Positions 45,101-61,497 of a stretch of DNA of 62,377 bases are shown one piece after another. The stretch is from Elusimicrobiota bacterium. Its GTDB lineage: Bacteria; Elusimicrobiota; Elusimicrobia; UBA1565; UBA9628. Within the stretch, counting starts at the first letter, position 1. Every line of letters starts with the position of its first letter. The stretch spans positions 1 to 62,377 of the forward strand of contig JAUYSH010000010.1 of the NCBI GenBank assembly GCA_030696455.1, read 5' to 3'. A program made the position numbers and the translations under genes. The notes under the pieces are model-generated. The model ran no database searches, was not told where the DNA came from, and saw only the letters and a list, made by a program, of their open reading frames with translations.

Positions 45101-45708
45101 ATCGCGGCGTCGCCGTCGGCCTCGACCCGGGTCAGCGGGTGCCGCCCGAGGCGGATCAGCTCGCGGGCGAGGCCCTTGGGCGGGCGGACGATGTCGGCGA
45201 AGCCGGCGGCGACGGCGGCGCGGGGCATGCCGGGATAGGCCGCGGACTTGACGTCCTGGACGCAGGTGATGCCGCCCGCGGCCTTGATCTCCTCGAGGCC
45301 GGCCGTGCCGTCGGACGCCATGCCGGAGAGCACGACGCCGATCGCGCGGGCCTTCTGGTCCCGCGCGAGCGAGCGGAAGAAGAGGTCGATCGGATTGCGA
45401 GCGCTCGCGGGCAAGGGGTCGAGCTTGAGACGGCCGTTGCGCAAGGTCATCGCGGCGTCGGGAGGCATCACGTAGACGCGGTTCGCCTCCAGGCGGACGC
45501 CGTCGCGCGCCTCCCGCACCGGCATCTTCGACGCCCGGCCCAGAATCTCGCTCAGGTGGCTCTTGTGCGCCGGGCTCATGTGAAGCAGGAAGAGGTAGGC
45601 GAGGCCGGTGTCGCCGGGAAGCTGCCGCAGCAGCTCGACGAAGGCGTCGACGCCTCCGGCGGAGGCGCCGATGCCGACGACCAAAGCGGGGGTCTTGGAT
45701 TCCCTCAT
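42172..45708 (-). CDS. CheB-CheR-PAS histidine kinase fusion
   Basis: A 1178-aa multidomain signalling protein. CheB methylesterase: GIGASAGGVDAFVELL (Ser), HMSPAHKSHLSEIL (His), VVLSGMASDGTAG (Asp). CheR methyltransferase: SLYKPSTLRRRISRRM, VWVAGCASGEEAYSIA, PFANQDVISCRNLLIYL. A coiled coil at about residues 640-720 repeats EEL-type heptads (SSNEELQSANEELESSREEL), then PAS domains, then a kinase core (IANVSHELRTPVTAIKGFAQ, GSGLGLSIAQQIV). Such fusions are orphan sensors, not flagellar chemotaxis parts; no che or fla genes are near. A perfect palindrome covers its promoter. Confidence 0.92.
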   Translation of the reverse strand: MRESKTPALVVGIGASAGGVDAFVELLRQLPGDTGLAYLFLLHMSPAHKSHLSEILGRASKMPVREARDGVRLEANRVYVMPPDAAMTLRNGRLKLDPLPASARNPIDLFFRSLARDQKARAIGVVLSGMASDGTAGLEEIKAAGGITCVQDVKSAAYPGMPRAAVAAGFADIVRPPKGLARELIRLGRHPLTRVEADGDAAIFADAAALGGIFSLLRSTGGVDFSLYKPSTLRRRISRRMFLLNLARLKDYLAFLRTRPAEVHALCNDLLINVTSFFRDPKAFEVLKKRVFPRIVKGHHANAPVRVWVAGCASGEEAYSIAIAYQEFMRERGASIPVHIFATDISDEAAAKARKGLYPESIASAMSADLLRRYFVKSAQGYQVVKQLRDMCIFAHHDVTSDPPFANQDVISCRNLLIYLEPVLQKTVLSTFHYALRPEGCLLLGGAETLGPSADLFVDIDKKVKIFGKKPVRASHLDLVSGRIGASRLQAAAGPSPARALKPPPGDALAVADRLILGRFAPAGVLLDGDLEILQFRGDTGRYLKTAPGKASLNLLRMAPEGLRLDLQLLVKKAFKARQPVRKNNVWVRLDRRSRLVNLEAAAFDVPPGKERYCLLSFLPAAPVPDAGAKPAKEPRNSLFLKLKRELNETKAYLQTRIEESESRNASLNIDNEEVISSNEELQSANEELESSREELQTANEELNTLNDELRKQNAALIQLGGDLDNVLESLAIPVALLGLDLRIRRVTLLDDTPLALAQADAGRSILDIQKRLGVAGLEEKALRTLKTSRGQDLELTGQDGRWYKLRMRPYKTAQGRIEGIVLALLDADVAKRGLLELQDVMEQSMAILDSELRVQSANRRFYELFRLTPRRAQGRPFIELAGGKGAGPALLKRLRAALVDGTPFRGFELDRRLRHLGQRVLRLGAVRVPDAGRAALYVGVKDITDVWRAETAKRLAERERTQREFIANVSHELRTPVTAIKGFAQTLKHGGLDDNKHRRSFVDAIERNADRLKGLIDALLRISELDERPLPRRGKVPLRALVRRCAASAGASVRVDVPAALEVSAERGQIREVLGSLIGNAVKFGRPGSPVLVKARPAGGEAVVTVEDRGIGVPERDFPHLFERFHRGRNARGLPGSGLGLSIAQQIVAAHGGRIWADERRRRGAAFHFTLPLATRR

Positions 45709-46330: not shown

Positions 46331-48187
46331 CTATTCGACGGTCACGCTCTTGGCCAGGTTGCGGGGCTGATCGACGTCGCAGCCGCGCAGGTCGGCGGCG
46401 TGATACGCGAGCAGCTGCAGCGGGAGGATGTTGAGGATCGGCGAGAGGTGCTCTCCCACCGGCGGCAGCTCGAGGATGTGGTCCGCCATGCCCCGGAGCC
46501 GGCGATCGCCCTCCGTGCAGAGCGCGATCAGGCGCGCGCCTCTCGCCTTGGCCTCCTCGATGTTCGACAGGGTCTTCTCGAGCACGTCCGAGCGCGTGGC
46601 GATCGCGACGACCGGCATTCCCGGGTCGATCAGGGCCAGCGGCCCGTGCTTCATCTCCCCGGCGGCGAAGCCTTCGGCGTGGATATAGGAGATCTCCTTG
46701 AGCTTCAGCGCTCCCTCCAGGGCCGTCGCGTAGTTGACGCCGCGTCCGATGAAGAGGACGTGCCGGGCCGCGCGCAGCTCGGCGGCGACGGCGCGGATCT
46801 TGTCCTCGAGAGCCAGGGTCCGCCGCAGGAGGCCGGGAAGGCGCTGAAGCTCCGCGGCCCAATCCCGCGCCTGCGCCTCGGGCATGAAGCCCCGGGCCGT
46901 TCCCGCGTGCAGCGCGACGAGGCTCAGCGCGACGAGCTGACCCGCGAAGGCCTTGGTCGACGCGACGCCGCACTCCGGGCCGCAGAACGTGTGGAAGTTG
47001 AAGTCCGCCTGGCGCGGTATCGCCGCGCCGACGGTGTTGCCGATCGAGAGCACCTTGAGCCCCTCCTCCCGGGCGAGGCGCACGGCGGCCAAAGTGTCGG
47101 CCGTCTCCCCGGATTGGCTGATGGCGATCACGAGCGTATCCGGCTCGAGTACCGGGCGGCGGTAACGGAACTCGGAAGCGGTCTCGACCGCGGTGGAGAC
47201 GCCCGCGTGGCGCTCCAGCAGGTATTTCCCGACGATGCCGGCGTGCCAGGACGTGCCGCAGGCGACGATCTGGACGCGCTTGACGCCCCGGAGCAGCTCC
47301 GGGGTCAGGCCGGTCTCCTCGCCCAGGCCGCCGAGGCGGCCGCGCAAGGTGTTCTCCACGGAGCGCGGCTGCTCGTGAATCTCCTTGAGCATGAAGTGAC
47401 GGTAGCCGCCCTTCTCGGCCGCCGAGCTGTCCCACGAGATTTCCGACGGGACCTTCTTGATCTCGAGGCCCAGGGCGTCGAAGAACGCGCAGCGGTCGCC
47501 GCGCATGACGGCCGACTCCCCGTCCTCGAGGTACACCACCCGCCGGGTGTGCTTGAGAAGGGCCGGGACATCCGAGGCGATGAAATTCTCCCGGTCGCCG
47601 AGACCGACGACGAGCGGAGAGTCCTTCTTGGCGGCGACGATCACCCCCGGGGCCTGCGACCAGATCGCGGCGAGGGCGTAGGCGCCGCGCACCTGCTTGA
47701 GGACGGCGCGCACGGCATCCGCGAGCGCGGCCTCGGCGAGGGCCGCCGCCGCGGGCGCCGAAACGCCGCTTTCCGCCAGCGCCTCCTCAATGAGGTGGGG
47801 CAGCACCTCGGTGTCGGTCGCGGAGGCGAAGACATGGCCGCGCGCCGACAGGGCCTCCTTGAGCGCCATATAGTTCTCGATGATCCCGTTGTGGATCACC
47901 GCGATCCGCCCGGCGCAGTCGACATGCGGGTGCGCGTTGGCCTCCGAGGGGCCCCCGTGGGTCGCCCAGCGCGTGTGGCCGAGCCCCATCTGGCCGTCCA
48001 GCGGCCGGCGCGCCAGCAGGTCGTGCAGGCTCGACAGCTTGCCCACGCTTCGCGCGACGGCGAGCGCGCCGCCGGAGACGACGGCGACGCCCGCGGAGTC
48101 GTAGCCGCGATACTCGAGCCGCCTCAATCCCTCGAGAAGGATCGGCACGGCCTGCTGCGAACCGGCATAGCCCACTATTCCGCACAT
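46331..48187 (-). CDS. glmS: Glutamine-fructose-6-phosphate aminotransferase
   Basis: A 618-aa enzyme making glucosamine-6-phosphate from fructose-6-phosphate and glutamine, the entry to UDP-GlcNAc. N-terminal glutaminase (MCGIVGYAGSQQAV, Cys2; RLEYRGYDSAGVAV), then two SIS isomerase domains (VACGTSWHAGIVGKYLLE, ISQSGETADTLAAVRLA, IGRGVNYATALEGALKLKEI) and the standard end NLAKSVTVE. The ATG at 48187 is 6 nt after TATAAT without a Shine-Dalgarno. The long upstream frame is not coding. Supplies precursor for the amino-sugar genes nearby. Confidence 0.97.
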   Translation of the reverse strand: MCGIVGYAGSQQAVPILLEGLRRLEYRGYDSAGVAVVSGGALAVARSVGKLSSLHDLLARRPLDGQMGLGHTRWATHGGPSEANAHPHVDCAGRIAVIHNGIIENYMALKEALSARGHVFASATDTEVLPHLIEEALAESGVSAPAAAALAEAALADAVRAVLKQVRGAYALAAIWSQAPGVIVAAKKDSPLVVGLGDRENFIASDVPALLKHTRRVVYLEDGESAVMRGDRCAFFDALGLEIKKVPSEISWDSSAAEKGGYRHFMLKEIHEQPRSVENTLRGRLGGLGEETGLTPELLRGVKRVQIVACGTSWHAGIVGKYLLERHAGVSTAVETASEFRYRRPVLEPDTLVIAISQSGETADTLAAVRLAREEGLKVLSIGNTVGAAIPRQADFNFHTFCGPECGVASTKAFAGQLVALSLVALHAGTARGFMPEAQARDWAAELQRLPGLLRRTLALEDKIRAVAAELRAARHVLFIGRGVNYATALEGALKLKEISYIHAEGFAAGEMKHGPLALIDPGMPVVAIATRSDVLEKTLSNIEEAKARGARLIALCTEGDRRLRGMADHILELPPVGEHLSPILNILPLQLLAYHAADLRGCDVDQPRNLAKSVTVE

Positions 48188-48193
48188 GGGCGG

Positions 48194-48199: not shown

Positions 48200-48357
48200 A
48201 CGGCGCCGACGCAGCGGGGCCATCGCGCGGCCGTAAAGGCTGGGCGTGAATCCTGTGACGCCCGGCGGTCGCAAGATCGTTACGCGGCCGTCCCAAGGCG
48301 GAGATACCGGCGTGGTACGATGGCGTGCGAAGACCGCAGAGGGGAGACAAAAGAGAT

Positions 48358-49746
48358 ATGGCACCGAAAAACACGACGTTGACGAGGGATCCCGCCGCCG
48401 CGAGCGGGGCCGCACACGCCGCGTCCGCGCTCGAGGGGCTGCTCGCCAAGCTCCCGGCCCGCGAGGCGCGCGTCGCCGTCATGGGGCTGGGCTACGTCGG
48501 CCTGCCGCTGCTGCGGCTGTTCGCGTCCAAGGGATTCCGCGTCATCGGCTGCGACGTCGACCGGTCGAAGATCGACTCGCTCAACAAGGGCCGGTCCTAT
48601 ATACGGTCGGTGCCGTCCGCCGACATCGCCAAGCACCTCGCCAACAAGCAGCTGCTCGCGACGACGGATTTCCGCAGCCTCGCCTCGGCGGACGCGATCT
48701 TCGTCTGCGTGCCGACCCCGCTCACCGTGGAGGGCAAGCCGGACGTGTCGGCCATCCGCCAGACCGCGAAGGCGATCGGCGCGACGCTGCGCCGCGGGCA
48801 GGTCGTCATCCTGGAAAGCACGAGCTATCCCGGCACGACGCGCGAGATCATGAAGCCGGAGCTCGAGCGGCGCGGCTTGAAGTGCGGGACGGATTTCTTC
48901 CTCGCCTTCTCGCCGGAGCGCGAGGACCCGGGCAACAAGGACTTCTCGATCGAGCAGATCCCCAAGATCGTCGGGGGCATCGACGCGCCCTCCCTGCGGG
49001 CCGCGGCGGCTCTCTACGGCGAGGCGGTGAACCGGGTGGTCGAGGTCTCCTCCTGCGAGGCCGCCGAGGCCGCCAAGCTGCTCGAGAACATCTACCGCTG
49101 CGTCAACATCGCCCTCGTCAACGAGCTGAAGATGTGCCTCGACCGCATGCGCATCGACGTGTGGGAGGTCATCGGCGCCGCGGCGACCAAGCCCTTCGGG
49201 TTCCAGGCGTTCTACCCGGGGCCGGGGCTCGGCGGGCACTGCATTCCGATCGATCCGTTCTACCTGTCTTGGAAGGCCCGCGAGTTCCAGTTCAATACCC
49301 GCTTCATCGACCTGGCCGGCGAGATCAACATCCAGATGCCGTACTACGTGCTGGCCAAGCTCGAGGAGGGCCTGCGCGGACAGGGCAAGAAGCTGGAGGG
49401 CGCGCGCATCCTCATGCTGGGCCTGGCCTACAAGAAGGACATCGACGACCCGCGCGAATCTCCCGCCTTCAAGCTTCTCGAGCTGCTGGGCCAGAAGGGC
49501 GCCTCGGTCGTCTACAACGATCCGAACATCCCCCGGTTCCCCGAGACGGAGCACACCCGGCACCTGAAGGTGGCCTCCGTGCGCGTGACGAGCGAGACGC
49601 TGGCCTCCGTCGACGCGGCGCTGATCGTGACGAACCACAGCGGCTACGACTACGACATGATCGCCCGGCACGCGCCGCTGGTCGTGGATACGCGCAACGC
49701 CTGCGCCGGGCAAAAGGCCTGGGGGGGCAAGATCGTCCGGGCCTGA
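48358..49746 (+). CDS. UDP-N-acetylglucosamine-type 6-dehydrogenase
   Basis: A 462-aa nucleotide-sugar dehydrogenase with NAD site VAVMGLGYVGLPLLRLFA, VPTPLTVEGKPDVS, LESTSYPGTT, FSPEREDPGN and the catalytic Cys in GPGLGGHCIPIDPFYLSWKA. The last motif is that of the WbpA/WbpO/WecC group, which oxidise UDP-GlcNAc or UDP-GalNAc (or ManNAc) to uronic acids, more than of UDP-glucose dehydrogenase. An extra 35-residue N-terminus is present. GGGAGA precedes the ATG. Divergent from glmS, so precursor and product genes are neighbours. Confidence 0.88.
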   Translation: MAPKNTTLTRDPAAASGAAHAASALEGLLAKLPAREARVAVMGLGYVGLPLLRLFASKGFRVIGCDVDRSKIDSLNKGRSYIRSVPSADIAKHLANKQLLATTDFRSLASADAIFVCVPTPLTVEGKPDVSAIRQTAKAIGATLRRGQVVILESTSYPGTTREIMKPELERRGLKCGTDFFLAFSPEREDPGNKDFSIEQIPKIVGGIDAPSLRAAAALYGEAVNRVVEVSSCEAAEAAKLLENIYRCVNIALVNELKMCLDRMRIDVWEVIGAAATKPFGFQAFYPGPGLGGHCIPIDPFYLSWKAREFQFNTRFIDLAGEINIQMPYYVLAKLEEGLRGQGKKLEGARILMLGLAYKKDIDDPRESPAFKLLELLGQKGASVVYNDPNIPRFPETEHTRHLKVASVRVTSETLASVDAALIVTNHSGYDYDMIARHAPLVVDTRNACAGQKAWGGKIVRA

Positions 49747-50619: not shown

Positions 50620-51345
50620 ATGATCGTCGCGGCGCATCAGCCCAACTTCATACCGTGGCTCGGCTACTTCGACAAGATGCTCAAGGCCGACCTCTTCATC
50701 ATCGTGGACCACGTCCAGATGGAAAGGCAGAGCTATCAGAACCGCGCGCGCATCAAGACGGGGGCGGGGGAGCGCTGGATCACGGTGCCGGTCGTCCAGG
50801 AGTCGCGGTCCGAGCGCATCATCGACAAACGCGTCGACAACAGCCGCGTCGGCCGCTTTCAATGGAGCCGCAAGATGTTCCTGACCCTCAAGTACGCCTA
50901 TCAGTCGGCGCCTTACTTCCGCGACTACGAGCCCGAGCTGAGCGGGATATTCTCGACGCGTTGGGACCGCCTCGCCGACCTCAACGTCCGGCTCATCGAA
51001 TTATGCCGCGCCGCCCTCGCCATCCGCACGCCGCTGCGGGCCAGCTCGAGTCTGAACGTATCGGGCACGAAATCCGAGATGATCCTTAATATGTGCCGCG
51101 CGGCGGGGGCCGACGTCTACCTGTCCGGGGCCGGCGCCTCCCGGGCGTACCTGGACGTGCCCGCGTTGGAGCAGGCGGGAATTCGCGTGGCCTGGCAGGA
51201 CTTCCGGCACCCGCGCTACCGGCAGTATCCGTGCTGCGACTCCTTCGCGCCGAATCTGTCGTCCTTTGATTTGATCTTCAACTGCGGGCCGAGAAGCCCC
51301 GAGATACTGCGCGGAGCGCGGGCCCGGGCGGGAGCGTCCATATGA
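50620..51345 (+). CDS. WbqC-like family protein
   Basis: A 241-aa protein with the WbqC signature near its N-terminus, AAHQPNFIPWLGYFDKMLKA, then VDHVQMERQSYQNRARIKT and WSRKMFLTLKYAYQSAPYF. WbqC-like proteins occur in O-antigen and capsule clusters and in nonribosomal pathways; their reaction is not settled, but an amide or thioester-linked step is often suggested. It is first in a three-gene operon, overlapping the deacetylase by 4 nt. Confidence 0.87.
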   Translation: MIVAAHQPNFIPWLGYFDKMLKADLFIIVDHVQMERQSYQNRARIKTGAGERWITVPVVQESRSERIIDKRVDNSRVGRFQWSRKMFLTLKYAYQSAPYFRDYEPELSGIFSTRWDRLADLNVRLIELCRAALAIRTPLRASSSLNVSGTKSEMILNMCRAAGADVYLSGAGASRAYLDVPALEQAGIRVAWQDFRHPRYRQYPCCDSFAPNLSSFDLIFNCGPRSPEILRGARARAGASI

Positions 51346-52019
51346 ACGGCAAGGTCCTCGAGCGCAAGGCGTCGCCGCGCGCCGACATCCTGTCGAACTA
51401 CGCCGGCGCGACGGTCATGGCGGTGGGGGCGCATCCCGACGATCTAGAGCTCGGCTGCGGCGGAACCTTGGCGCGCCTGAGCCGGGCGGGGGCCCGCGTC
51501 GTCATGGTCGTGGTCAGCATCCCCAGCCGCCTTCGCTCGCGCCGCGCCGAGGCGATGGAGGCCGCGGCGATCCTGGGCTGCGAGATCCGCTTCCTGACGC
51601 CGAACCGCTGTTCCCGGGTCGAGGACCTCAAGACCCATCAGCTCGTCGCCATGATCGACGGCCTCGTCAAGGAGCTGCGGCCGGCGGCGATGTTCTCCCA
51701 TTGCCTGCCCAACCTGCACCTCGACCATAAGCTCGTCTACGACGCGTGCATGGCGAGCCAGCGCCTGAGCTACTTCGACATCTTCTGCTATTCGCCGACG
51801 AGCTGCCATGCCGTGAACATCCCGTTCTTTCCCCACGCGTACATCGACATCACCGAGACGATCGACGCCAAGATGAAGGCGATCCGCGTGCACTCGAGCC
51901 AGTTCGACTCGCGCGGGCTGAACACCGAGCGATACAAGGAAGCGGACGCCGTCGTCGGGCAGATCGTCGGCGTCGGTTACGCCGAGGGCATGGAGATCGT
52001 CCGGATGAAGGTCAATTGA
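51342..52019 (+). CDS. LmbE/PIG-L deacetylase
   Basis: A 225-aa zinc N-deacetylase: MAVGAHPDDLELGCGGTLAR (zinc ligands His, Asp, Asp), PNLHLDHKLVYDACMASQRL (second metal His pair) and FPHAYIDITETIDAKMKAIR. It probably removes an acetyl from an N-acetyl sugar intermediate, leaving a free amine. The stop TGA overlaps the TTG start of the glutamine-synthetase-like gene, and the ATG overlaps wbqC, so the three proteins are made together. Confidence 0.88.
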   Translation: MNGKVLERKASPRADILSNYAGATVMAVGAHPDDLELGCGGTLARLSRAGARVVMVVVSIPSRLRSRRAEAMEAAAILGCEIRFLTPNRCSRVEDLKTHQLVAMIDGLVKELRPAAMFSHCLPNLHLDHKLVYDACMASQRLSYFDIFCYSPTSCHAVNIPFFPHAYIDITETIDAKMKAIRVHSSQFDSRGLNTERYKEADAVVGQIVGVGYAEGMEIVRMKVN

Positions 52020-53314
52020 GCGAGCAGGCGGCGTCCTTCGACGCCCTGAGCAGGCTGATCTCCTCGCGCGGCTTGAGGTTCGCGCAGCTGTGGTTTACCG
52101 ACCTCGAGGGCCGTCCGTGGCGCATCATGATGCCGACGGACTCGGTCGGCGAAAGCCTCTTTGCCGAAGGCCTGCCGCTGGACGGGCAGCCCATCGGCGG
52201 CAGCTGGGACGGCGTGATGAGGCTGCTGCCGCGGCTCGACGCGGCGTACGTGGACTCGACGGCCTCCGTCGCGAGCCTCGTGATGTTCTGCGATATTCTA
52301 GAGCCCGGCGGCGTCGAGCCGCTGGCGCTCGAGCCGCGCCACGTCCTCGCGAAGGCGGCCGGGCTCGCCGAGGAGCGCTTCGACGGCGCGATCGTGCTCG
52401 GCGTGGAGCCGGAGTTCATCCTCCTGGAGGCGGACGGCCGTCCCGCCGCGGAGAACGTCGTCTGGGACTTTCTTTCCCGCCTCACCCTGTCGCTCGGGGA
52501 CGCGGGGATAAGGGTGGACTGGTTTCGCGGCGGCCCCGCCTCGGGGCAGGGCCGGGCCCAGATGCGCGCCGGGCCGCCGCTGCAGATGGCCGACAGGGTG
52601 ATGCTTTACCGCCACCTGGCGGCCGGCCTCGCCCGGGAGCGAGGGCTCACGGCATCCTTCCTGCCGCGGCCGCTCGCCGGCGGCGGCTCGCCGGGCATGC
52701 CCGTGCACGCGGCGGTGTGGAGGCGGGGGGAGAACCTATTTCACGACGAGGCCGGCTGGGCCCTGACGAGCGCGCTGTGCCGTTCCTTCGCGGGAGGGCT
52801 GCTGGCGCACCTGCCGGCGCTGGCGGCGCTGTGCGCGCCGACGACCAACTCGTACCGCCGGCTGATCGCGGGCCACTCGGGGCCGGTCAACCCTGTCGTC
52901 TCGACCTCCGATCGGACGGCGGCGTGCCGCATTCCCGCTCGCACGGCGGCTCCTGGCGCGCGCCGCGTCAAGTTCTGCCTGCCCGACTCGACGGCCAACC
53001 CATACCTCGCGCTCGCGGCGGTGATCCTGGCCGGGCTCGACGGGGTCGAGCGCGGGCTCGCGCCTTCGATCGACGGCGCCCGGCCGGCGGGAGCGGGAGT
53101 GCCGCCGTGCCTGGAAGCCGCGCTCGACTGCCTCGCCGCGGACCGGGGCTTCCTGACGTCCGGCGGGGCGTTCTCGGACCGGCTCGTCGACTCGTGGATC
53201 AAGGACCGCTGGACGCGCCACGTGCTTCCCGTGCGACTGCGGCCGCATCCCTGGGAGCAGGCCCAGACCGAGCAGTTCGGCAGCGCTCGCGGCGTCGAGG
53301 AGCACCGGCCTTAG
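52016..53314 (+). CDS. Glutamine-synthetase-like protein with degenerate active site
   Basis: A 432-aa protein homologous to GS over its length: LWFTDLEGRPWRIMMPTDS, GVEPEFILLE, ADRVMLYRHLAAGLAR, SPGMPVHAAVWRRGENLFHD, PTTNSYRRLIAGHSGPVNPV, LPDSTANPYLALAAVILAGL. Normal GS has DGSSI, GQxE, RSACVRIP and RxEFRxPD; here these read DGQPI, GQGRAQM, RTAACRIP and RRVKFCLPD, so several metal and substrate Glu/Arg are lost. It cannot be assumed to make glutamine and may ligate another acid and amine or be non-catalytic. The TTG start overlaps the upstream stop (TTGA). Confidence 0.8.
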   Translation: MSEQAASFDALSRLISSRGLRFAQLWFTDLEGRPWRIMMPTDSVGESLFAEGLPLDGQPIGGSWDGVMRLLPRLDAAYVDSTASVASLVMFCDILEPGGVEPLALEPRHVLAKAAGLAEERFDGAIVLGVEPEFILLEADGRPAAENVVWDFLSRLTLSLGDAGIRVDWFRGGPASGQGRAQMRAGPPLQMADRVMLYRHLAAGLARERGLTASFLPRPLAGGGSPGMPVHAAVWRRGENLFHDEAGWALTSALCRSFAGGLLAHLPALAALCAPTTNSYRRLIAGHSGPVNPVVSTSDRTAACRIPARTAAPGARRVKFCLPDSTANPYLALAAVILAGLDGVERGLAPSIDGARPAGAGVPPCLEAALDCLAADRGFLTSGGAFSDRLVDSWIKDRWTRHVLPVRLRPHPWEQAQTEQFGSARGVEEHRP

Positions 53315-53374
53315 TCATGCGAGCGACAAAATGAATTCACTCGTGAGCCATGGCTACGCGTGTCGCACGCCGAA

Positions 53375-53380
53375 TATACT
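53375..53380 (+). promoter_or_regulatory. -10 element 6 nt before the PilZ-glycosyltransferase gene
   Basis: TATACT, then ACGCCC, then the ATG at 53387. TGGCTA lies 18 nt upstream of the -10. The spacing matches the other leaderless-type starts and places the promoter of the exopolysaccharide operon here. Confidence 0.48.
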
Positions 53381-53386
53381 ACGCCC

Positions 53387-55021
53387 ATGAATCCGCAGAC
53401 CCAGGAGCACAACGAGCCCGAGATCGTCAGGCCGAGCCGCTCCGAGGGATTCAGCGAACGCCGCCGGAGGTCGCGGACATCGGAGCGCTTCCCCGTGACC
53501 GTCGTCGCCCCGGGCGGGCTCCTGCGCGCCGTCACCTTGACCGGCGACGCGAAGGATTACGATCCGGCCGGGATCTGCGTTCTGGCCGCCCGACCGCTCG
53601 CGGTCGGGACCGTGGTCCGCGTCCGCCTTCACCTCCCCAAATCGATCTCGCTGCCTTCCCGCGGCCTGCCGTGCGAGTTCCGCGCCCTCGTGGCGGCCGT
53701 GCGCAAGACGAAGCCCAAGGGCGCGCAATCCTGCGAGCTCGTGCTGGAGTGGGAGAAGCCTCTGCCCGAGTTGGTCTCGGGTGCCGTGACCTCCTATAAA
53801 CGCAAGATCGCCGCCTTGGTCGCCCTGGTGCTGGCGCTGCTCGTCTGGACCAAGTATCAAAGCCTCGATTTCTTCTGGTTCGCGCCGGTGTTCTACGTCT
53901 ACAGCCTGGCTCTGGCCCTGTACCTCCTTTCCCGGTTCTACATCTCCTGGCGCCACCGCGCCCCGCCGCTGGGCAACTACACGCCGAGCGTGAGCATCGT
54001 CATCTCCGTGCGCAACGAGGAGCACGCCATCACCCGCACCGTCGAGACCTGCTTCGAGACGGACTACCCGTCGGATAAGCGCGAGGTGCTGGTCGTCAAC
54101 GACGGGTCCACCGACGGCACCTTGCGGGTCCTGAAGGACCTCCAAAAGAGATTCCCGGAGCTTCAGGTCTTCAGCCAGCCGCCCACCGGCAAGCGCGCGG
54201 CGATGGCCCAGGGGGTCAAGAGCGCGAAGGGGGAGATCATCACCTTCGTGGACTCGGACACCTTCCTGTTCCGCGACGCCCTGCGCCACATCGTCTGCGG
54301 CTTCGAGGACCCCACCTTGGGGGCCTCGGCGGGGTACACCGAGGTGGAGAACTGCAACACGAACGCCCTGACGGGCCTGCAGGAGATACGTTATTACGTT
54401 TCCTTCCGCCTGCTCAAGGCTTCGGAGGGATTCTACGCCGCCGTGACGTGCTGCCCGGGCTGCCTGTCGGCGTACCGCCGCAAATACGTTCTCGAGATCC
54501 TGGACCCTTGGCGCAACCAGCGCTTCCTCGGGGCCGAGGCGACCTTCGGCGACGACCGCAGCCTGACGAACTTCATCCTGCGCAAGTACCGCGTGATCTA
54601 CAACGACCTGGCCGTCGCGTCCACCCTGGTCCCCGACACGTGGGGCCAATACCTGCGCCAGCAGCTGCGCTGGAAGAAATCGTGGCTGCGCGAGACCCTG
54701 ATCGCCGCGTCCTTCATGTACAAGAAGCATCCCGTCGCGGCGATCTCGTTCTACGCCTCCTCGATCATCAGCGTCGCGTCGCCGGCGATGGCCGGACGCG
54801 TGGCCTACCTGGCCGCGCAAGGCGAGGCTTCGATGCTCCTCCCCTATTTGCTGGGCCTGCTCCTGATCGGCTTCCTCCAGTCCCTCTATTTCCTCCACCG
54901 GCGCCCCAGCCCGCACTGGCTGCTCGGCATGCTGTGGATGGGCAGCGCGCTGTTCATCACGGGGCCCCAGACCTACTACGCCGTCCTGACCATGCGCAAG
55001 AACCATTGGGGCACGCGGTGA
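53387..55021 (+). CDS. PilZ-fused processive family 2 glycosyltransferase (polysaccharide synthase)
   Basis: A 544-aa inner-membrane protein. Residues about 20-130 are PilZ-like: an Arg cluster (SERRRRSRTSERFPVTV) and DYDPAGICVLAARPL, where the usual Ser of the DxSxxG motif is Asp. Two helices follow, then a GT-A catalytic domain with VVNDGSTDGT (about 235), FVDSDT (about 287), FGDDRSL (about 386) and QQLRWKKSW (about 425), and C-terminal helices ending NHWGTR. These are the D,D,D,QxxRW and WGTR marks of hyaluronan/poly-GlcNAc synthases. PilZ suggests control by c-di-GMP. It overlaps the next gene as GTGA. Confidence 0.9.
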   Translation: MNPQTQEHNEPEIVRPSRSEGFSERRRRSRTSERFPVTVVAPGGLLRAVTLTGDAKDYDPAGICVLAARPLAVGTVVRVRLHLPKSISLPSRGLPCEFRALVAAVRKTKPKGAQSCELVLEWEKPLPELVSGAVTSYKRKIAALVALVLALLVWTKYQSLDFFWFAPVFYVYSLALALYLLSRFYISWRHRAPPLGNYTPSVSIVISVRNEEHAITRTVETCFETDYPSDKREVLVVNDGSTDGTLRVLKDLQKRFPELQVFSQPPTGKRAAMAQGVKSAKGEIITFVDSDTFLFRDALRHIVCGFEDPTLGASAGYTEVENCNTNALTGLQEIRYYVSFRLLKASEGFYAAVTCCPGCLSAYRRKYVLEILDPWRNQRFLGAEATFGDDRSLTNFILRKYRVIYNDLAVASTLVPDTWGQYLRQQLRWKKSWLRETLIAASFMYKKHPVAAISFYASSIISVASPAMAGRVAYLAAQGEASMLLPYLLGLLLIGFLQSLYFLHRRPSPHWLLGMLWMGSALFITGPQTYYAVLTMRKNHWGTR

Positions 55022-56826
55022 GGAAGGACTACGCCGCCGCGTGGCTCGGAATCTTCTCCTGCCTGGGGCTCTGGTTTTTTTGGAGCCTGTACGGCTCCGC
55101 CTACGTGCGCCGGACCTATCTCGCGGCGGCGTCGTTCGCCGAGTCCTCGAGGACGCAGTCGCAGTTCGTCGCGGTCCTGCTCCCGCGCATCCGGCGCAAG
55201 CCGGAGAGGTTCGTGATGTCCGAGGCGGAATTGACCGCGCTTCTGCGGGGCCTCAAGGACGCCGGCCACGTCACGATCGGCCTCGACGACGTCGAGGGCC
55301 TGTACGCCCGGGGACGCAAGCTGCCGCCGAAGGCCTTGCTGCTCGCCTTCTCCGAGAACGATCAGCGCGGCTTCCAGCTGTCGGACCGCGCGCTCAAGCG
55401 CCTCGGCATGCGCGGCGTCGCGTTCATCCAGATGACCGCCGAGGACGCCGGGCAGGAGCACCGCCAGCACCTGACCCGGCACGCGATTTCGCAGATGCGC
55501 CTCGGGCGGGCCTGGGAGTTCGGCTGGACGGCCAAGGACGCGCCGCCTTCCGCTTCGCCCTGGGGCGGCCGCGCCGTGCTCGAAGTCGAGATCTCGAAGG
55601 CGCCGCCGACGGACCCGAAGCTCTATCCCCTGCGCTTCGTCGCCGCGGAACTGGGCCTCAACGACGGGCGCGACGATCCCCGCGCCCTGCGCGCGCTCGC
55701 GCTGCGCACCGACCGCTCGCCGTCCGACAACCTCCAGATCGTGACGAAGACCTGGCCGCGCGCGTCGGAGCACAGCGATGATTTCCGGGGCGACGGCGTG
55801 GGAACCGACTGGATCGAGGGCTGGGGGGTCGTCTCGATGGGGCAGCGCCGCCTGGCCCTGCTGTCCACGCCCCGGCACACCAGCGCGGGCGTCTTCCTGA
55901 GAGGGACGGAGAAATGGCGGGACGCGGCCGTGGAATTCGTCCTGAAGAAATACCAGAAGGAGTTCTGGGCCTACGCGCGTCTGCGCGAGGCGGGCGGGTT
56001 CGTGCGGGTCGGGGCGCGCGACGGCTTCTGGTACGTGGAGCAGAAGGCGGGGCCTGAGGCGCCCGTCAACATGCTCGCCCGGACGCAGATCGCCGAGGGC
56101 GGCCTGCCGGCGCGGGTGCGGTTCGTGGTCAAGGGAGGGTCCGTGCTCGTCTACATCAACGGACGCATGCAGTTCGGCCGGGCCCTGCGCCTTCATCCCG
56201 GCGTGGATCACGGTCAGGTGTTTCTCGGGGTGTACGACGCTCAATCCCGGACCTCTCTGGCGGTGCTGACGTCGGTACGCGCCGCTCCCTTGGGCGACGT
56301 CTGGATCACGACGCAGGACGACCGTCGCGGAGAGTTCGACGAGGACCGGCTTGAGGCCCTGCGCGACGAGGCGGTCTACGCCCGGGCGCTGTCGCCGCGG
56401 TGGATCACCGTCGAGCCCGAGGGCGGCGTGGTGCTCGACGAGAGGCAGAGCGTGTTGATCCGCTCGATGGCGGGCTTTTACGCCTGCCGCCTCGTGGCGA
56501 CGGCGGACCTCACCGGGGTCAGGGCCTCCGTGCTGGGGAGGACGGCGGCCGCCGACCGTCTGGCGGGCGGCCTCGCCTCCGCCGCGCGCGAGCTGGGCTC
56601 GTCCGGCCTCAATATTCGCCTGCGGGGGGACCAGGCCTCGCGCCCCGAGACGCTCGCCTTTCTGGGCAAGGTTCGCGAGGGCCTGCGCTCGCGCGGCGAA
56701 CTGCTCGTGACCGTGCAGGGCGAGGAGCCGCTGGAGCGGGCGCTGGCGCTGGTGACCGACGGCGTGCTCCGCCGGTCGGCCAGAACGAGGCAGTCCCTCG
56801 AGCTATTGGAGGCGGTCTATCCATGA
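55018..56826 (+). CDS. Membrane-anchored protein with degenerate NodB-like and lectin-like domains
   Basis: A 602-aa protein with one N-terminal helix (AAAWLGIFSCLGLWFFWSLY). Residues about 45-160 follow a polysaccharide-deacetylase pattern (MSEAELTALLRGLKDAGHVT, LPPKALLLAFSENDQRGF), but the metal motif TFDDG reads AFSEND, so catalysis is doubtful. Residues about 300-425 look like a concanavalin/LamG beta-sandwich (FWAYARLREAGGFVRVGARD, VLVYINGRMQFGRALRLHPG). The C-terminal part has helical repeats reminiscent of a worn GH18-type barrel. Likely periplasmic, guiding or binding the polymer. The GTG start overlaps the synthase stop. Confidence 0.7.
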   Translation: MRKDYAAAWLGIFSCLGLWFFWSLYGSAYVRRTYLAAASFAESSRTQSQFVAVLLPRIRRKPERFVMSEAELTALLRGLKDAGHVTIGLDDVEGLYARGRKLPPKALLLAFSENDQRGFQLSDRALKRLGMRGVAFIQMTAEDAGQEHRQHLTRHAISQMRLGRAWEFGWTAKDAPPSASPWGGRAVLEVEISKAPPTDPKLYPLRFVAAELGLNDGRDDPRALRALALRTDRSPSDNLQIVTKTWPRASEHSDDFRGDGVGTDWIEGWGVVSMGQRRLALLSTPRHTSAGVFLRGTEKWRDAAVEFVLKKYQKEFWAYARLREAGGFVRVGARDGFWYVEQKAGPEAPVNMLARTQIAEGGLPARVRFVVKGGSVLVYINGRMQFGRALRLHPGVDHGQVFLGVYDAQSRTSLAVLTSVRAAPLGDVWITTQDDRRGEFDEDRLEALRDEAVYARALSPRWITVEPEGGVVLDERQSVLIRSMAGFYACRLVATADLTGVRASVLGRTAAADRLAGGLASAARELGSSGLNIRLRGDQASRPETLAFLGKVREGLRSRGELLVTVQGEEPLERALALVTDGVLRRSARTRQSLELLEAVYP

Positions 56827-59800
56827 TGAACCTTATCCTTGCCGCGGCCCTGGCCGCGGCGCCGGCGCCTTCATCCGCCGCCCCGGCCGCTCCGGCCGCC
56901 GCGCCCCTCAGCCCCGGCGCGCGGCTGATGGCGGAGGAGCGCTACCGCGAGGCGATCCCCGCGCTGGAGCGGGAGCTGCGCGCCGATCCGGGGGCGCCCG
57001 GCGTCCTCCTCAACCTGGGCTGGGCCTACTGGCATTCCCGCCGCCTCGACGACGCCTGGCGCGTGGCGACCACGCTCGTCAAGCTGGACCCGGCCAACCG
57101 CACCTTCCTGATCTTCATGGCGAACACGAGCATAGAAAGGCGCGACTACGCCCGCGCGATCGCGCTGATGAAGCGGGCGCTGACGTTGACGCCGGACGAT
57201 CACGACGCGATGATGGTGCTGGCCCGGGCGCTGTTCCTCGAGGGCCGCGAGGCGGAGGCGCTGAAGCTCGTCGAGCGGCTGCTCGCGGCCCGCCCCGGCG
57301 ACGCGACGGCGGCCTATCGACGCGCGGTTTTCCTGTCCGGGATGGGGCGCAAGCGCGAGGCCCTGGAGGGGCTCGAGGAACTGCTCAAGAGCGATCCGGA
57401 GAACGTCTCCTACCGCCGCAACCGCGCCCGGATCTTGGCCGATCTCGGCCGCCAGGAGGAGGCCAAGAGCGAGTGGAGCAGCCTGACGCGAGGCCGGCTG
57501 GACGCGCAGTCCTTGATGAACCTCGGCTGGGCGCATTGGCGCGAGCGGAACCTGGACGCCGCCTGGGAGATCGCGCTGACCTTGGTGAAGCTCGACGACA
57601 AGAACCCGGCTTTCCTGCGCTTCATGGCCAATCTGGAATTGGACCGGCGCAACTACGACAACGCGCTGACGATCGCGGAAAAAGCCGTGCGCCTCGCTCC
57701 GGCGGACCTCGACGCGTCGCTGACCTTGGCGGCGGCCAATTACCACCTTCATCGCGTGACGGACGCGATGAGCATACTGAGCCGGCTCATCGCCGCGCAT
57801 CCCGACAACATCTCCGTGCAATACCGCTGGGCGGAGGTGCTCGCGGGTCGACGGCGCTACAAGGAAGCCTTGAGCTACTTCGACCGCCTCGTCAAGGCCG
57901 ACCCGAACAACGAGGTCTACCGGATGAACCGCGCGACGGTCCTTTATGAGATGGGCCGCTTCGACGACGGCCTCGCCGAGTGGGAGGCGCGGGCCTCCCT
58001 CGAGGTGCCCGACGCGCGCGCCGTGAGGCAGCTGCGCGACGACGCCATGCACCGCCGGAGCTGGGAGGACGCCGTCGAATGGCAGATGAAGCTCATCGCC
58101 GCCGACCCGCGCGATCCGGCGGGCTGGGAGCAGCTGTCCGCGATCTACGTCCAGATGAAGATGCCGTCCAAGGCCCTGTGGGCGGCCGAGCGCGCGATCA
58201 CGGTCGATCCCATGTCCTTCGGCGGGTATTTCCTGCGCGCCGAGATCCTCGAGGGCCTGGGCGACTGGGACGAGGCCATCGCCGCCTACAAGGAGTTGCT
58301 TCGCCTCAATCCCAACAGCGCGCAGGCGCTCAACGGGCTGTCGTACGTGCTGGAGGGGAAAGGGGATTTCGACGGGGCGCTCAGGCAGCTGAGTCGAATC
58401 GAAGAGGTCACCGCGCCCTCCGTTTCGCCCTACCTGGAGGTGCACCGGGCGAGGCTCCTGGTCGACTCCGGACGCTACGCGCAGGCGCAGCAGGTTCTGG
58501 ACCGGCTGACGTCGCGGCGGCAGCCTGTGATCCCCGCCCTTCTCTACCACGGCATCTCGCCGATCCATCGCGGCGAATCCATCCCCATCGAGAACTTCCG
58601 CGCCCAGATGCGCGCTCTTAAGGCGAAGGGCTACCAAGCCATCACCGCCTCCGAGCTCGCCCGCGTCATGGCGGGGAAAGCGGACCTTCCCGAGAAGCCC
58701 ATTCTCATCACCTTCGACGACGCCCGCACGGACTCCTTCGACAATGCCGACCCGGTGCTTAAGGAAGTGGGGTTCCGCGCGACGATGTTCGTGCACGTGT
58801 CCAGGCTGCGCCGGCCGTATTTCCACGCGTCGAGCGAGGAGATCGCGCGCTGGTCGCGGACGGGACGCTGGGAGATCCAGTCCCACGGCACGCAGGCCCA
58901 CGACCCCATGCTGATCGATCCTTTCGGGCGCCGCGGCCATTTCCTGCCCAACCGCCGGTGGCTTCCGGCGGCGAACCGCCTGGAGACGCTGGCCGAGTTC
59001 CACCTGAGGATCGAGGAGGATTTCGTCCAGGCCAAGCGCGGCGTGGAGGCCATGGTGCCCGGCCACCGGGTGCTCGCCTTCGCCTTCCCGTTCGGCGACT
59101 ACGGCCAGAACGATTACTCGAACACGCCGGAGGCGGCCGGGCTCAATCAGGCGCTGGTCAAGAAGACCTTCCAGCTGGCCTTCGTCCAGGCGCCCCATGG
59201 AGTCAACACTCTGGACTCCAATCCGACCGATCTCAAGCGCTTCTCGGTGCCGCGGCATATGAAGGCCGACGCGCTCGTGTCCCATCTCGTCATGGGCGAG
59301 CCGTGGGTGCAGGCCAAGCTGGTTCACGCGCAGCTGTGGATGCGGGCGGGCCAGTTGGGACGCGCGAACGAGGTCTTCGAGGAGCTCGAGGCGGCCGGCA
59401 TCGAGGACCCGCGCCTCCAGATGGAGAGGGCCGTCCTGTTCCAGCGCGGAGGAGACATCTCCTACGCGCGCAGCCTGTTCTCCCAGGTGGCGGCGGCGGA
59501 GGCGGAGGCCGAGGGCGCCCCGGCCGAGCGCACCCAGCGGCGCCTCGCCCAGGCGTCGCGCGCGGCCGCGCCGACGGCCTCGGCGGAGGTGCAGCACTTC
59601 CGGGACAGCGACCGCAACGAGATCTCCCGTGCGCTCCTGCGCGGCGGGGGCGTGGTCAAGGCGGTCCGGCTCGAGGGTTGGGTGGGCCAAGGGGAATACA
59701 CCGAGGAGCCCGAATTCGGCCCGCCGGCGCCGCTGGTGCGAAGCCGTGAGGGCGGCGTTCAGGCCCGCTGGTTCGTCCTGCCCGCGCTCGAGCTCAGCGG

Positions 59801-60437
59801 CTTCTACGCCCGGCGCGAATTCTCCCTGGGAGGCACGGGCTTCGCCGACAACTACGCCCTCGCCGCGGCCTGGCAGGCGCGGCCCTCCCTCGGCGTGACG
59901 CTGCGCGACGGCCTCGGCAACGTCGAGACGGCGGCCGCGATCCGCTCGTCCCGAAAATTCCACACGAACGGCGGGGGGCTCATCTGGGACCCGGTGCTGA
60001 CCTGGAGGCTCAACGCGGACTACGATCAAACCCGCTACAATGATTCGAACCGGGCCCAGGACGTGCGTCTGCGCGCGACGAAGCGCTTCTCCCATCGCGT
60101 GGCCGTCGGCGCGGCTTATTACCACGGTGAATCGACGACCCGCAATCCCGACTACTACACGCCGCGCAGGGTCAACCAGTACTCCGGCCTGCTCACCCTC
60201 AACGACGGCTACGGCGAAATCAACCCGCGCACGGGCCGCACGCGGGTGGACGCCATGCTTCAGTACGAAGGCGGCAGGGGCTATGAGGAGCGGGGCGCGC
60301 GCACCGTGCATTCGCTCAGAGGAGAGCTGGGCCTGAACCTCCTCGACAACATCTCGGTGCGGGCCGGCGGCCAATACTCGGAGTCGCCGACCTACATCAG
60401 CCGGCGCGCCGACGGCGCGCTCGTCGTTACTTTTTAG
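56823..60437 (+). CDS. TPR / NodB polysaccharide deacetylase / outer-membrane beta-barrel fusion
   Basis: A 1204-aa protein with signal-like start. Residues about 30-560 are TPR repeats (LLNLGWAYWHSRRLDDAWRV and similar). About 565-790 is a NodB deacetylase: LLYHGISPIHRGES, ILITFDDARTDSFD (base and metal Asp), EIQSHGTQAHDP (metal His pair spaced as in PgaB) and FAFPFGDYGQND. After a second short TPR part, residues about 940-1204 alternate as beta-strands (KAVRLEGWVGQGEYTEE, WRLNADYDQTRYNDSNRAQD) and end in VVTF, a terminal Phe as in BAM substrates. It thus joins PgaA-like export and PgaB-like deacetylation in one chain. ATGA overlap with the previous gene. Confidence 0.85.
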   Translation: MMNLILAAALAAAPAPSSAAPAAPAAAPLSPGARLMAEERYREAIPALERELRADPGAPGVLLNLGWAYWHSRRLDDAWRVATTLVKLDPANRTFLIFMANTSIERRDYARAIALMKRALTLTPDDHDAMMVLARALFLEGREAEALKLVERLLAARPGDATAAYRRAVFLSGMGRKREALEGLEELLKSDPENVSYRRNRARILADLGRQEEAKSEWSSLTRGRLDAQSLMNLGWAHWRERNLDAAWEIALTLVKLDDKNPAFLRFMANLELDRRNYDNALTIAEKAVRLAPADLDASLTLAAANYHLHRVTDAMSILSRLIAAHPDNISVQYRWAEVLAGRRRYKEALSYFDRLVKADPNNEVYRMNRATVLYEMGRFDDGLAEWEARASLEVPDARAVRQLRDDAMHRRSWEDAVEWQMKLIAADPRDPAGWEQLSAIYVQMKMPSKALWAAERAITVDPMSFGGYFLRAEILEGLGDWDEAIAAYKELLRLNPNSAQALNGLSYVLEGKGDFDGALRQLSRIEEVTAPSVSPYLEVHRARLLVDSGRYAQAQQVLDRLTSRRQPVIPALLYHGISPIHRGESIPIENFRAQMRALKAKGYQAITASELARVMAGKADLPEKPILITFDDARTDSFDNADPVLKEVGFRATMFVHVSRLRRPYFHASSEEIARWSRTGRWEIQSHGTQAHDPMLIDPFGRRGHFLPNRRWLPAANRLETLAEFHLRIEEDFVQAKRGVEAMVPGHRVLAFAFPFGDYGQNDYSNTPEAAGLNQALVKKTFQLAFVQAPHGVNTLDSNPTDLKRFSVPRHMKADALVSHLVMGEPWVQAKLVHAQLWMRAGQLGRANEVFEELEAAGIEDPRLQMERAVLFQRGGDISYARSLFSQVAAAEAEAEGAPAERTQRRLAQASRAAAPTASAEVQHFRDSDRNEISRALLRGGGVVKAVRLEGWVGQGEYTEEPEFGPPAPLVRSREGGVQARWFVLPALELSGFYARREFSLGGTGFADNYALAAAWQARPSLGVTLRDGLGNVETAAAIRSSRKFHTNGGGLIWDPVLTWRLNADYDQTRYNDSNRAQDVRLRATKRFSHRVAVGAAYYHGESTTRNPDYYTPRRVNQYSGLLTLNDGYGEINPRTGRTRVDAMLQYEGGRGYEERGARTVHSLRGELGLNLLDNISVRAGGQYSESPTYISRRADGALVVTF

Positions 60438-60447
60438 GGGGGAGATC

Positions 60448-61497
60448 ATGGGCAGCGACACGTTGCGGACGCGGGGAGTCCCCGCGCGGGCGTATTCAAG
60501 GGCCGAGTTCTCGGCCCTGCACGCGCCGCCGGAGAAGGCGCCGTCCGGCGACAAGCTGCGGCGCCAGCTCCGCCGGAGGTTCCAGCTCCGCGCGCAGCGG
60601 CCCGAGCGGTCCTTTCTGCTCGCCGCGGGGGCGCACGACGCGATGACCGCCGGAATCCTCGCCGACCTCGGCTACGAGGCCGTTTACGCCAGCGGCGAAC
60701 AGTTGGCCGCGGCGCGAGGCCCGCTCCCGGACGCCGGCCTGGCGCCGTCGCATCAGCTCCCGGAGCTGGTCCGGGAGCTCGGGCGCGGCATCGAGGCCGT
60801 GCGCGACCGCCGGTTCTTCGAATCCGGCGGGGAGGTTGCGGATGCCCCGCCGATCTTCGCCGACGTGCCCGGAGCGGACGGCCCGCTGCGGGCCTTCGCG
60901 CTCGCGCGCGAGCTGATCCGGGCCGGCGCGGCGGGCGCGCGCGTCGAGCGAAGCCCCTCGTGGCTCGAGACCTTGGTCGCCGTGAAGGCCGCCGCCCAGG
61001 CCGAGGAAAGCCCGCTGGTCGTCATCGCGTGCGCGGACCGCGCCGAGAGCGCTCTCGAGGCGGCGGCCTTGGGCGTCGACGTGCTCTGCGCCGAGTTCAG
61101 CGGCACGGACCTCGAAGGCCCCCGGCGGTTCGCGCGGGACGTGCACGCGGCCTTCCCGGAGCAGGTGCTCGGGTTCGATCTGTCGGCCTCGCTTCCTTGG
61201 GGCGAAACCAAGAAGCGGGGCGCCCTTCCGGGGGCTGGCGAGCTGGGAGCCCTGGGCTTCTCGCTGCAGTTCTCCGCGATGTTCGCCTTTCACGCGGCGG
61301 GGATGGCGCTCGAGAGCTGGCTGCGCGGATTTCGCGGCCGGGGCCTGGACGCGCTCGCCGACCTGCAGCTGGTGGAGTCCGGCTCCCTCGGCGACGAGCC
61401 GCGCACGCGGCGCCCCCGGAGGTTCGCCGGGGCGGACCGCTGGCTGGCGTTGGACCGCAAGATCAAGGCGGCGGCGCGGCGGCCCGGGCCGGGCTGA
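60448..61497 (+). CDS. Isocitrate-lyase/PEP-mutase-like protein, catalytically degenerate
   Basis: A 349-aa protein resembling isocitrate lyase: FLLAAGAHDAMTAGILADLG, ASGEQLAAARGPLPDAGLAP, HQLPELVRELGRGIEAVRDR, LIRAGAAGARVE, then GFSLQFSAMFAFHAAGMALE and GLDALADLQLVESG. The catalytic Cys motif KKCGH and neighbouring metal Asp are missing; the region reads ERSPSWLETLVAVK. It is also shorter than isocitrate lyase. It starts 10 nt after the beta-barrel fusion with a GGGGGGAG ribosome site, so it is probably co-transcribed. A binding or regulatory role is more likely than lyase activity. Confidence 0.75.
   Translation: MGSDTLRTRGVPARAYSRAEFSALHAPPEKAPSGDKLRRQLRRRFQLRAQRPERSFLLAAGAHDAMTAGILADLGYEAVYASGEQLAAARGPLPDAGLAPSHQLPELVRELGRGIEAVRDRRFFESGGEVADAPPIFADVPGADGPLRAFALARELIRAGAAGARVERSPSWLETLVAVKAAAQAEESPLVVIACADRAESALEAAALGVDVLCAEFSGTDLEGPRRFARDVHAAFPEQVLGFDLSASLPWGETKKRGALPGAGELGALGFSLQFSAMFAFHAAGMALESWLRGFRGRGLDALADLQLVESGSLGDEPRTRRPRRFAGADRWLALDRKIKAAARRPGPG

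Follow-up and report, generated by a model that had tools for sequence, protein, structure and literature searches.

A probable PgaABC-like exopolysaccharide secretion locus with a predicted TPR-deacetylase-porin fusion in Elusimicrobiota

Four closely spaced genes in the genome of an Elusimicrobiota bacterium raise the question of whether they form one polysaccharide secretion system and, if so, whether that system is a variant of the poly-GlcNAc (pga) machinery or something assembled differently from similar parts. In the 62,377-nucleotide stretch of DNA analysed here (the window), the genes lie on the forward strand in the order synthase (a PilZ-GT2 protein of 544 aa, 53387-55021), a membrane-anchored, PgaB-like second gene (602 aa, 55018-56826), a third gene encoding a TPR-deacetylase-porin protein (1204 aa, 56823-60437) and an isocitrate-lyase-like gene with a match to that family (60448-61497). 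The junctions, read directly, are a 4-nt overlap GTGA (55018-55021), a 4-nt overlap ATGA (56823-56826) and a 10-nt gap (60438-60447), in agreement with the coordinates and with the tight coupling described in the first-pass annotation. The core consists of the first three genes, referred to below as the trio.

Distribution of the trio and its surroundings

The gene arrangement is not due to chance, because both the order and the 4-nt overlaps recur in further genomes. The search for the same gene order that the first-pass annotation had proposed found it in relatives, with stop/start overlaps, mostly of 4 nt, in most copies. A first search for the second gene turned up 8 additional genomes and, wherever contigs were long enough, the synthase-second-third order, G010 excepted. 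Of the 341 genomes of the phylum, 11 have a full-length match to the second protein, in three families of one order; a profile of the barrel domain of the third protein detected 14 genomes, of which G050, G058 and G216 are new and belong to two other families. Altogether, trio members span five families within a single class, and among them is a second type that is divergent (type II). G050 carries the full trio, and G058 and G216 carry the second and third genes, the remainder being cut by contig edges. The core proteins of the window are 68-85% identical to those of the congeners G016 and G001, and G016 also has a second, divergent trio of synthase, pseudo-NodB-lectin and TPR-deacetylase-barrel genes (L043, 1862-7490). 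In G010 (L034, 6291-9244; L041, 7212-9619) no synthase lies between wecB and the second gene; a synthase homologue followed by a lectin-like lipoprotein is found about 285 kb away, and the second and third genes have frame breaks.

The fourth gene is probably a decayed accessory. The HLEDQ...CGH loop (RTCGH) that characterises lyases of this family is preserved in the orthologues of G036 and G010; in the window, 25 residues are missing at the catalytic CGH loop and 16 more elsewhere, and G016, G001 and others have no such gene after the trio. Its description as a degenerate isocitrate-lyase-like gene is therefore retained, and a place in the pathway is rejected in view of its sporadic occurrence and the deletion of the catalytic loop.

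Further upstream, glmS (about 46331-48190, reverse strand) and a nucleotide-sugar dehydrogenase (48325-49746, forward strand) lie at the 4-7 kb distance reported earlier. The assignment of the latter to a UDP-GlcNAc type is not established, as a generic NDP-sugar dehydrogenase model fits it and UDP-ManNAc dehydrogenase comes next. A glmS gene is also near the locus in G025 and G043. As proof of the polymer sugar these two genes are weak, and shared ancestral synteny within one order could account for the recurrence of glmS. The region 50620-53314, upstream of the trio, holds WbqC-like, PIG-L deacetylase and divergent glutamine-synthetase-like genes, of which WbqC and PIG-L also adjoin the cluster in G232 (L057, 12129-13584). 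On the reverse strand, 42172-45708 encodes a 1178-aa protein which, judged by eye from its translation, resembles a CheB-CheR-PAS-histidine-kinase fusion. GH18 proteins with an intact IDYE/VDYE motif adjoin the trio in G025, G021 and G050; none was found in the window's genome.

Between the glutamine-synthetase-like gene and the synthase, six codons and a stop (VMRATK*, 53314-53334, forward strand) are in frame with the wecB ends VTRATK*, VTGKTK*, VTRAAK* and VMEGSK* of G016, G001, G008 and G036, and directly upstream of them identity to the relatives falls to about background. By sequence comparison this relic of the 3' end of wecB is the scar of an nfrA-nfrB-wecB deletion in the window lineage. 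In G016, G001 (where the contig starts inside nfrB), G010, G036 and G232 these genes directly precede the trio and share its strand; in G050 nfrA-nfrB is divergent upstream of the trio, and in G008 the end of wecB lies upstream of the synthase. NfrB was not found in the window's genome, which gave a single-domain match only. Among the 341 genomes of the phylum, 10 encode NfrB, and 7 of these 10 also have the trio (Fisher 4e-9, with no correction for kinship); the trio occurs without NfrB in G000, G025, G234, G043 and G021. Between the wecB relic and the synthase lies a candidate promoter (53348-53380, forward strand), with CCATGG at 53348-53353 and TATACT at 53375-53380, both of which are shared by four genomes of the genus and kept in part elsewhere. 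Only six bases separate TATACT from the synthase ATG, a spacing which suggests a leaderless transcript.

Domain content of the three core proteins

From Pfam, NCBIfam and PDB matches and hydrophobic segments, the synthase consists of a PilZ-like domain (53456-53710), two transmembrane helices, a GT2 catalytic domain (53993-54676) and C-terminal transmembrane helices. It matches GT2, chitin-synthase and NodC/PgaC models, scoring 151.2 bits against the NodC model TIGR04242 (equivalog cut-off 550) and 103.9 bits against the PgaC model TIGR03937 (cut-off 422.3), below the cut-off in both cases. Identity to E. coli PgaC is 28% across 284 positions, the best PDB matches are hyaluronan synthases (E 7e-32), and the DxD, GDD and QQxRW catalytic motifs are invariant in 8 synthase orthologues. 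Judged by profile score, the synthase is nearer to NodC and hyaluronan synthase than to PgaC, so PgaC is no guide to the linkage of its product. The earlier description of a PilZ-fused synthase of the hyaluronan/poly-GlcNAc type stands as regards a PilZ-type GT2 enzyme. In a tree of synthases, those of the window type form one supported clade (98/100) and those of type II a separate clade (100/97), with the placement of both relative to NodC/HAS, PgaC and the Paenibacillus relative not resolved. A second PilZ-GT2-like synthase, without partner genes and beside a PorV-like gene, is present in G036 (L042, 7977-9572).

The PilZ match of the window synthase is sub-threshold (18.4 bits against a Pfam cut-off of 22.5); the domain is matched in 7 of the 8 orthologues, at best with 4e-7, and scores above the cut-off in G050, a type-II relative, as well as in a Paenibacillus relative. 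Its RxxxR motif is invariant. The second motif, canonically D/NxSxxG, reads DxDxxG in the window, as it does in the majority of the closest relatives, and DxSxxG in G050, the type-II copy of G232 and Paenibacillus. Binding of c-di-GMP by this domain is plausible because RxxxR is invariant, the PilZ assignment is supported across the family and DxSxxG is found in some relatives; the departure of the window's second motif from the canonical form speaks against it. Several GGDEF domains are encoded in the window's genome.

The third protein comprises a signal peptide, a TPR region (56940-58508), a PgaB-type CE4 deacetylase domain (58572-59291), a short TPR-like stretch (59304-59522) and a 16-strand barrel (59574-60434). 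The deacetylase domain (residues 584-823) matches TIGR03938 with E 4e-20, and its PDB sequence matches are BpsB/PgaB (BpsB E 1e-12); the whole protein is below the equivalog cut-offs of both PgaB (71.8 against 321.9 bits) and PgaA (TIGR03939, 62.7 against 366.65 bits). In every copy examined, apart from that of G043, the TFDD pair and the H-x4-H metal ligands align with those of E. coli PgaB, and a segment containing NR-x-W/Y is also shared with PgaB, so that the domain is apparently an intact PgaB-type CE4 deacetylase. In the G043 fusion copy (L033, 9185-13351) the metal-binding histidines are lost and the barrel is retained.

The C-terminal 305 residues are predicted to form a porin-type barrel of 16 strands (AlphaFold pLDDT 91.9). 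Its best PDB match by Foldseek is 4y25, the E. coli PgaA porin (TM 0.71/0.75), followed by PelB, with BcsC fifth; all three polysaccharide exporters have higher TM values than the general porins listed. The proposed kinship with PgaA comes from this fold and from one relative, which matches Pfam PgaA_barrel by sequence just under the cut-off (E=1.4e-5); when the third protein was compared with PgaA by hhalign, the hits were weak only. The first-pass annotation had proposed the TPR-deacetylase-porin fusion and had named the C-terminal part as the point on which it would fall if no beta-barrel were predicted; domain matches and a modelled 16-strand barrel whose best match is the PgaA porin now support it. 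A plasmid search with the deacetylase-porin part returned ordinary deacetylases only. Six exact peptides scanned against genome contigs hit an unrelated TPR protein only, a result uninformative on range outside the phylum.

The second protein has no match in Pfam. We read it as a transmembrane segment (55033-55092), a pseudo-NodB domain (about 55162-55533), a ConA-like lectin (55801-56310) and a pseudo-GH18 domain (56341-56817), in other words the layout of a dead PgaB into which a lectin has been inserted. Support for the NodB part is good: the four best PDB matches of a profile of 8 orthologues are PgaB/IcaB-type deacetylases, over residues 49-163 (E 1e-3 to 6e-3), and hhalign aligns the protein with E. 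coli PgaB at E 3e-5 and, transmembrane segment included, with a Paenibacillus NodB-lectin protein at a probability of 96.5 and E 8e-10. The profile also picks up deacetylase-like stretches elsewhere in the phylum. The deacetylase motifs are gone, with FSEND or similar replacing TFDDG and no H-x4-H. AlphaFold models a beta-sandwich (262-431) and an alpha/beta C-terminus (442-600) with confidence and the NodB region at low confidence, and Foldseek returns ConA-like lectins, laminin-G domains, GH16 enzymes and one GH18 enzyme (SleL). The pseudo-GH18 part is moderately supported, by fold and weak sequence similarity; in all 9 copies of the second protein GLNIRLR or similar stands where neighbouring GH18 proteins have GLEIDYE, and type-II second proteins are without this part. 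The membrane anchor and lectin named in the earlier description are both present, and the protein is more than a lectin. A plasmid search with the second protein gave no match.

A proposed route for the polymer

Domain content, the conservation or loss of active sites and the coupled gene order are supported by the sequences, and the barrel fold by the predicted model. We consider it likely that the trio is a synthase-dependent, PgaABC-like exopolysaccharide secretion system with its parts redistributed. The inner-membrane PilZ-GT2 synthase would polymerise and extrude an N-acetylhexosamine chain, most likely of GlcNAc, with ManNAc added as a candidate since nfrA-nfrB-wecB lies beside the trio in relatives; c-di-GMP would probably gate the synthase via the PilZ domain fused to it, which would stand in for PgaD. 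The dead PgaB-lectin scaffold, anchored in the membrane, may capture the emerging chain on the periplasmic side and pass it on to the superhelix formed by the TPRs of the third protein, whose fused deacetylase would strip some acetyl groups before the chain leaves via the fused PgaA-like 16-strand pore, possibly to serve in a biofilm. Given the dead deacetylase of G043 and the absence of a synthase from the locus in G010, not every copy would work in this way.

The first alternative concerns the polymer alone and leaves the machinery as described. A chitin-like or hyaluronan-like product (beta-1,4/1,3), exported in a chitosan-like form in place of beta-1,6 PNAG, is quite possible, though short of probable: the NodC and PgaC scores (151 against 104 bits) and the hyaluronan synthases among the PDB matches point that way, and the neighbouring GH18 proteins, whose motif is intact in relatives as well as in Paenibacillus, hint at a hydrolase acting on a GlcNAc polymer, whereas the deacetylase and barrel of the trio resemble PgaB and PgaA and the synthase tree does not settle where the family falls relative to NodC/HAS and PgaC. 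The trio might also be a part or partner of NfrA-NfrB-WecB, making or modifying a ManNAc-containing glycan or contributing one of two synthases to a mixed polymer. This we regard as unlikely. The adjacency in several relatives and the co-occurrence given above favour it, as does the dependence of the E. coli NGR glycan, a ManNAc-glycan pathway, on WecB and on c-di-GMP (PMC8669472), but the trio persists in the five genomes without NfrB, NfrA is a separate TPR-bearing protein which could itself serve NfrB, and in the window the nfr genes are deleted with just the wecB relic left. Distinctly improbable is a more elaborate, c-di-GMP-controlled machine in the relatives, in which NfrB/WecB and the PilZ synthase would share one export route and the PgaB-lectin adaptor would deliver a mixed GlcNAc/ManNAc chain to a single deacetylating and exporting protein. 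That the window locus is decaying and its system no longer works there is very unlikely; the wecB scar, the lyase loop deletion, the non-canonical PilZ motif and the lack of a GH18 gene in this genome would fit such decay, and against it the three core reading frames are intact, keep their catalytic motifs and retain high identity to those of G016 and G001.

If the trio is a PgaABC-like system with redistributed parts, its third protein allows deacetylation and export to be studied together in one chain. The live deacetylase in the pore protein and the dead PgaB-lectin scaffold at the inner membrane would separate the catalytic from the polymer-handling role of PgaB.

Comparison with known systems

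The trio shares with E. coli PgaABCD a PgaB-type deacetylase, TPRs with a 16-strand PgaA-like porin, a GT2 synthase and a coupled operon. It differs in that deacetylase and porin share one chain, a lectin-bearing PgaB-like protein persists as a dead scaffold, and the synthase is fused to PilZ; unlike PgaB, no single protein of the trio combines an active deacetylase with a C-terminal glycoside hydrolase domain. The window locus has no open reading frame for PgaD, as what comes after the three overlapping genes is the lyase-like gene and then a response regulator. The working principle is pga-like; by membership the trio is not pga, because it misses the NCBIfam equivalog cut-offs of PgaA, PgaB and PgaC, PgaD is absent and the PgaB layout is split. 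The first-pass view that PgaA and PgaB functions are compressed into fewer chains agrees with the presence of deacetylase and porin in one protein. In E. coli, the deacetylase domain of PgaB is bound and made more active by the C-terminal TPR of PgaA (PMC9384988); the fusion thus unites two established partners and offers natural evidence that the two act as a unit, as that biochemistry suggests.

A cluster on the Paenibacillus cellulositrophicus plasmid NZ_CP045296.1 (L059, 5404-10210) encodes a PilZ-GT2 synthase with 45% identity over 321 residues, then a TM-NodB-lectin protein, and a GH18 protein. It is apparently a Gram-positive counterpart, differing in having no TPR-porin and a separate GH18 protein with its catalytic motif, and it hints that a module of PilZ-synthase and deacetylase-lectin exists without an outer-membrane porin; no functional data on it were found. 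E. coli NfrA-NfrB-WecB resembles the trio, for which c-di-GMP control is inferred, in joining a c-di-GMP-controlled synthase to an outer-membrane exporter. The two systems, physically adjoining in the relatives, differ in synthase family and regulatory domain.

Fusions of comparable kind are already on record. The Bcs cellulose system, like the trio, exports through a TPR-porin and provides in BcsZC a precedent for joining a periplasmic enzyme to the pore (PMC7112194), although BcsZC carries a hydrolase and not a deacetylase, and the trio is without a BcsB gene. PgaB clades with N-terminal GT fusions likewise involve the PgaB-type deacetylase, and their operons are without a detectable PgaA pore (PMC7112194); there the fusion is to the synthase side, unlike that of the trio. 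A limited literature search found no report of TPR, deacetylase and porin in a single chain, and within that search it is this combination, joining the deacetylase to the exporting pore, which appears to be new.
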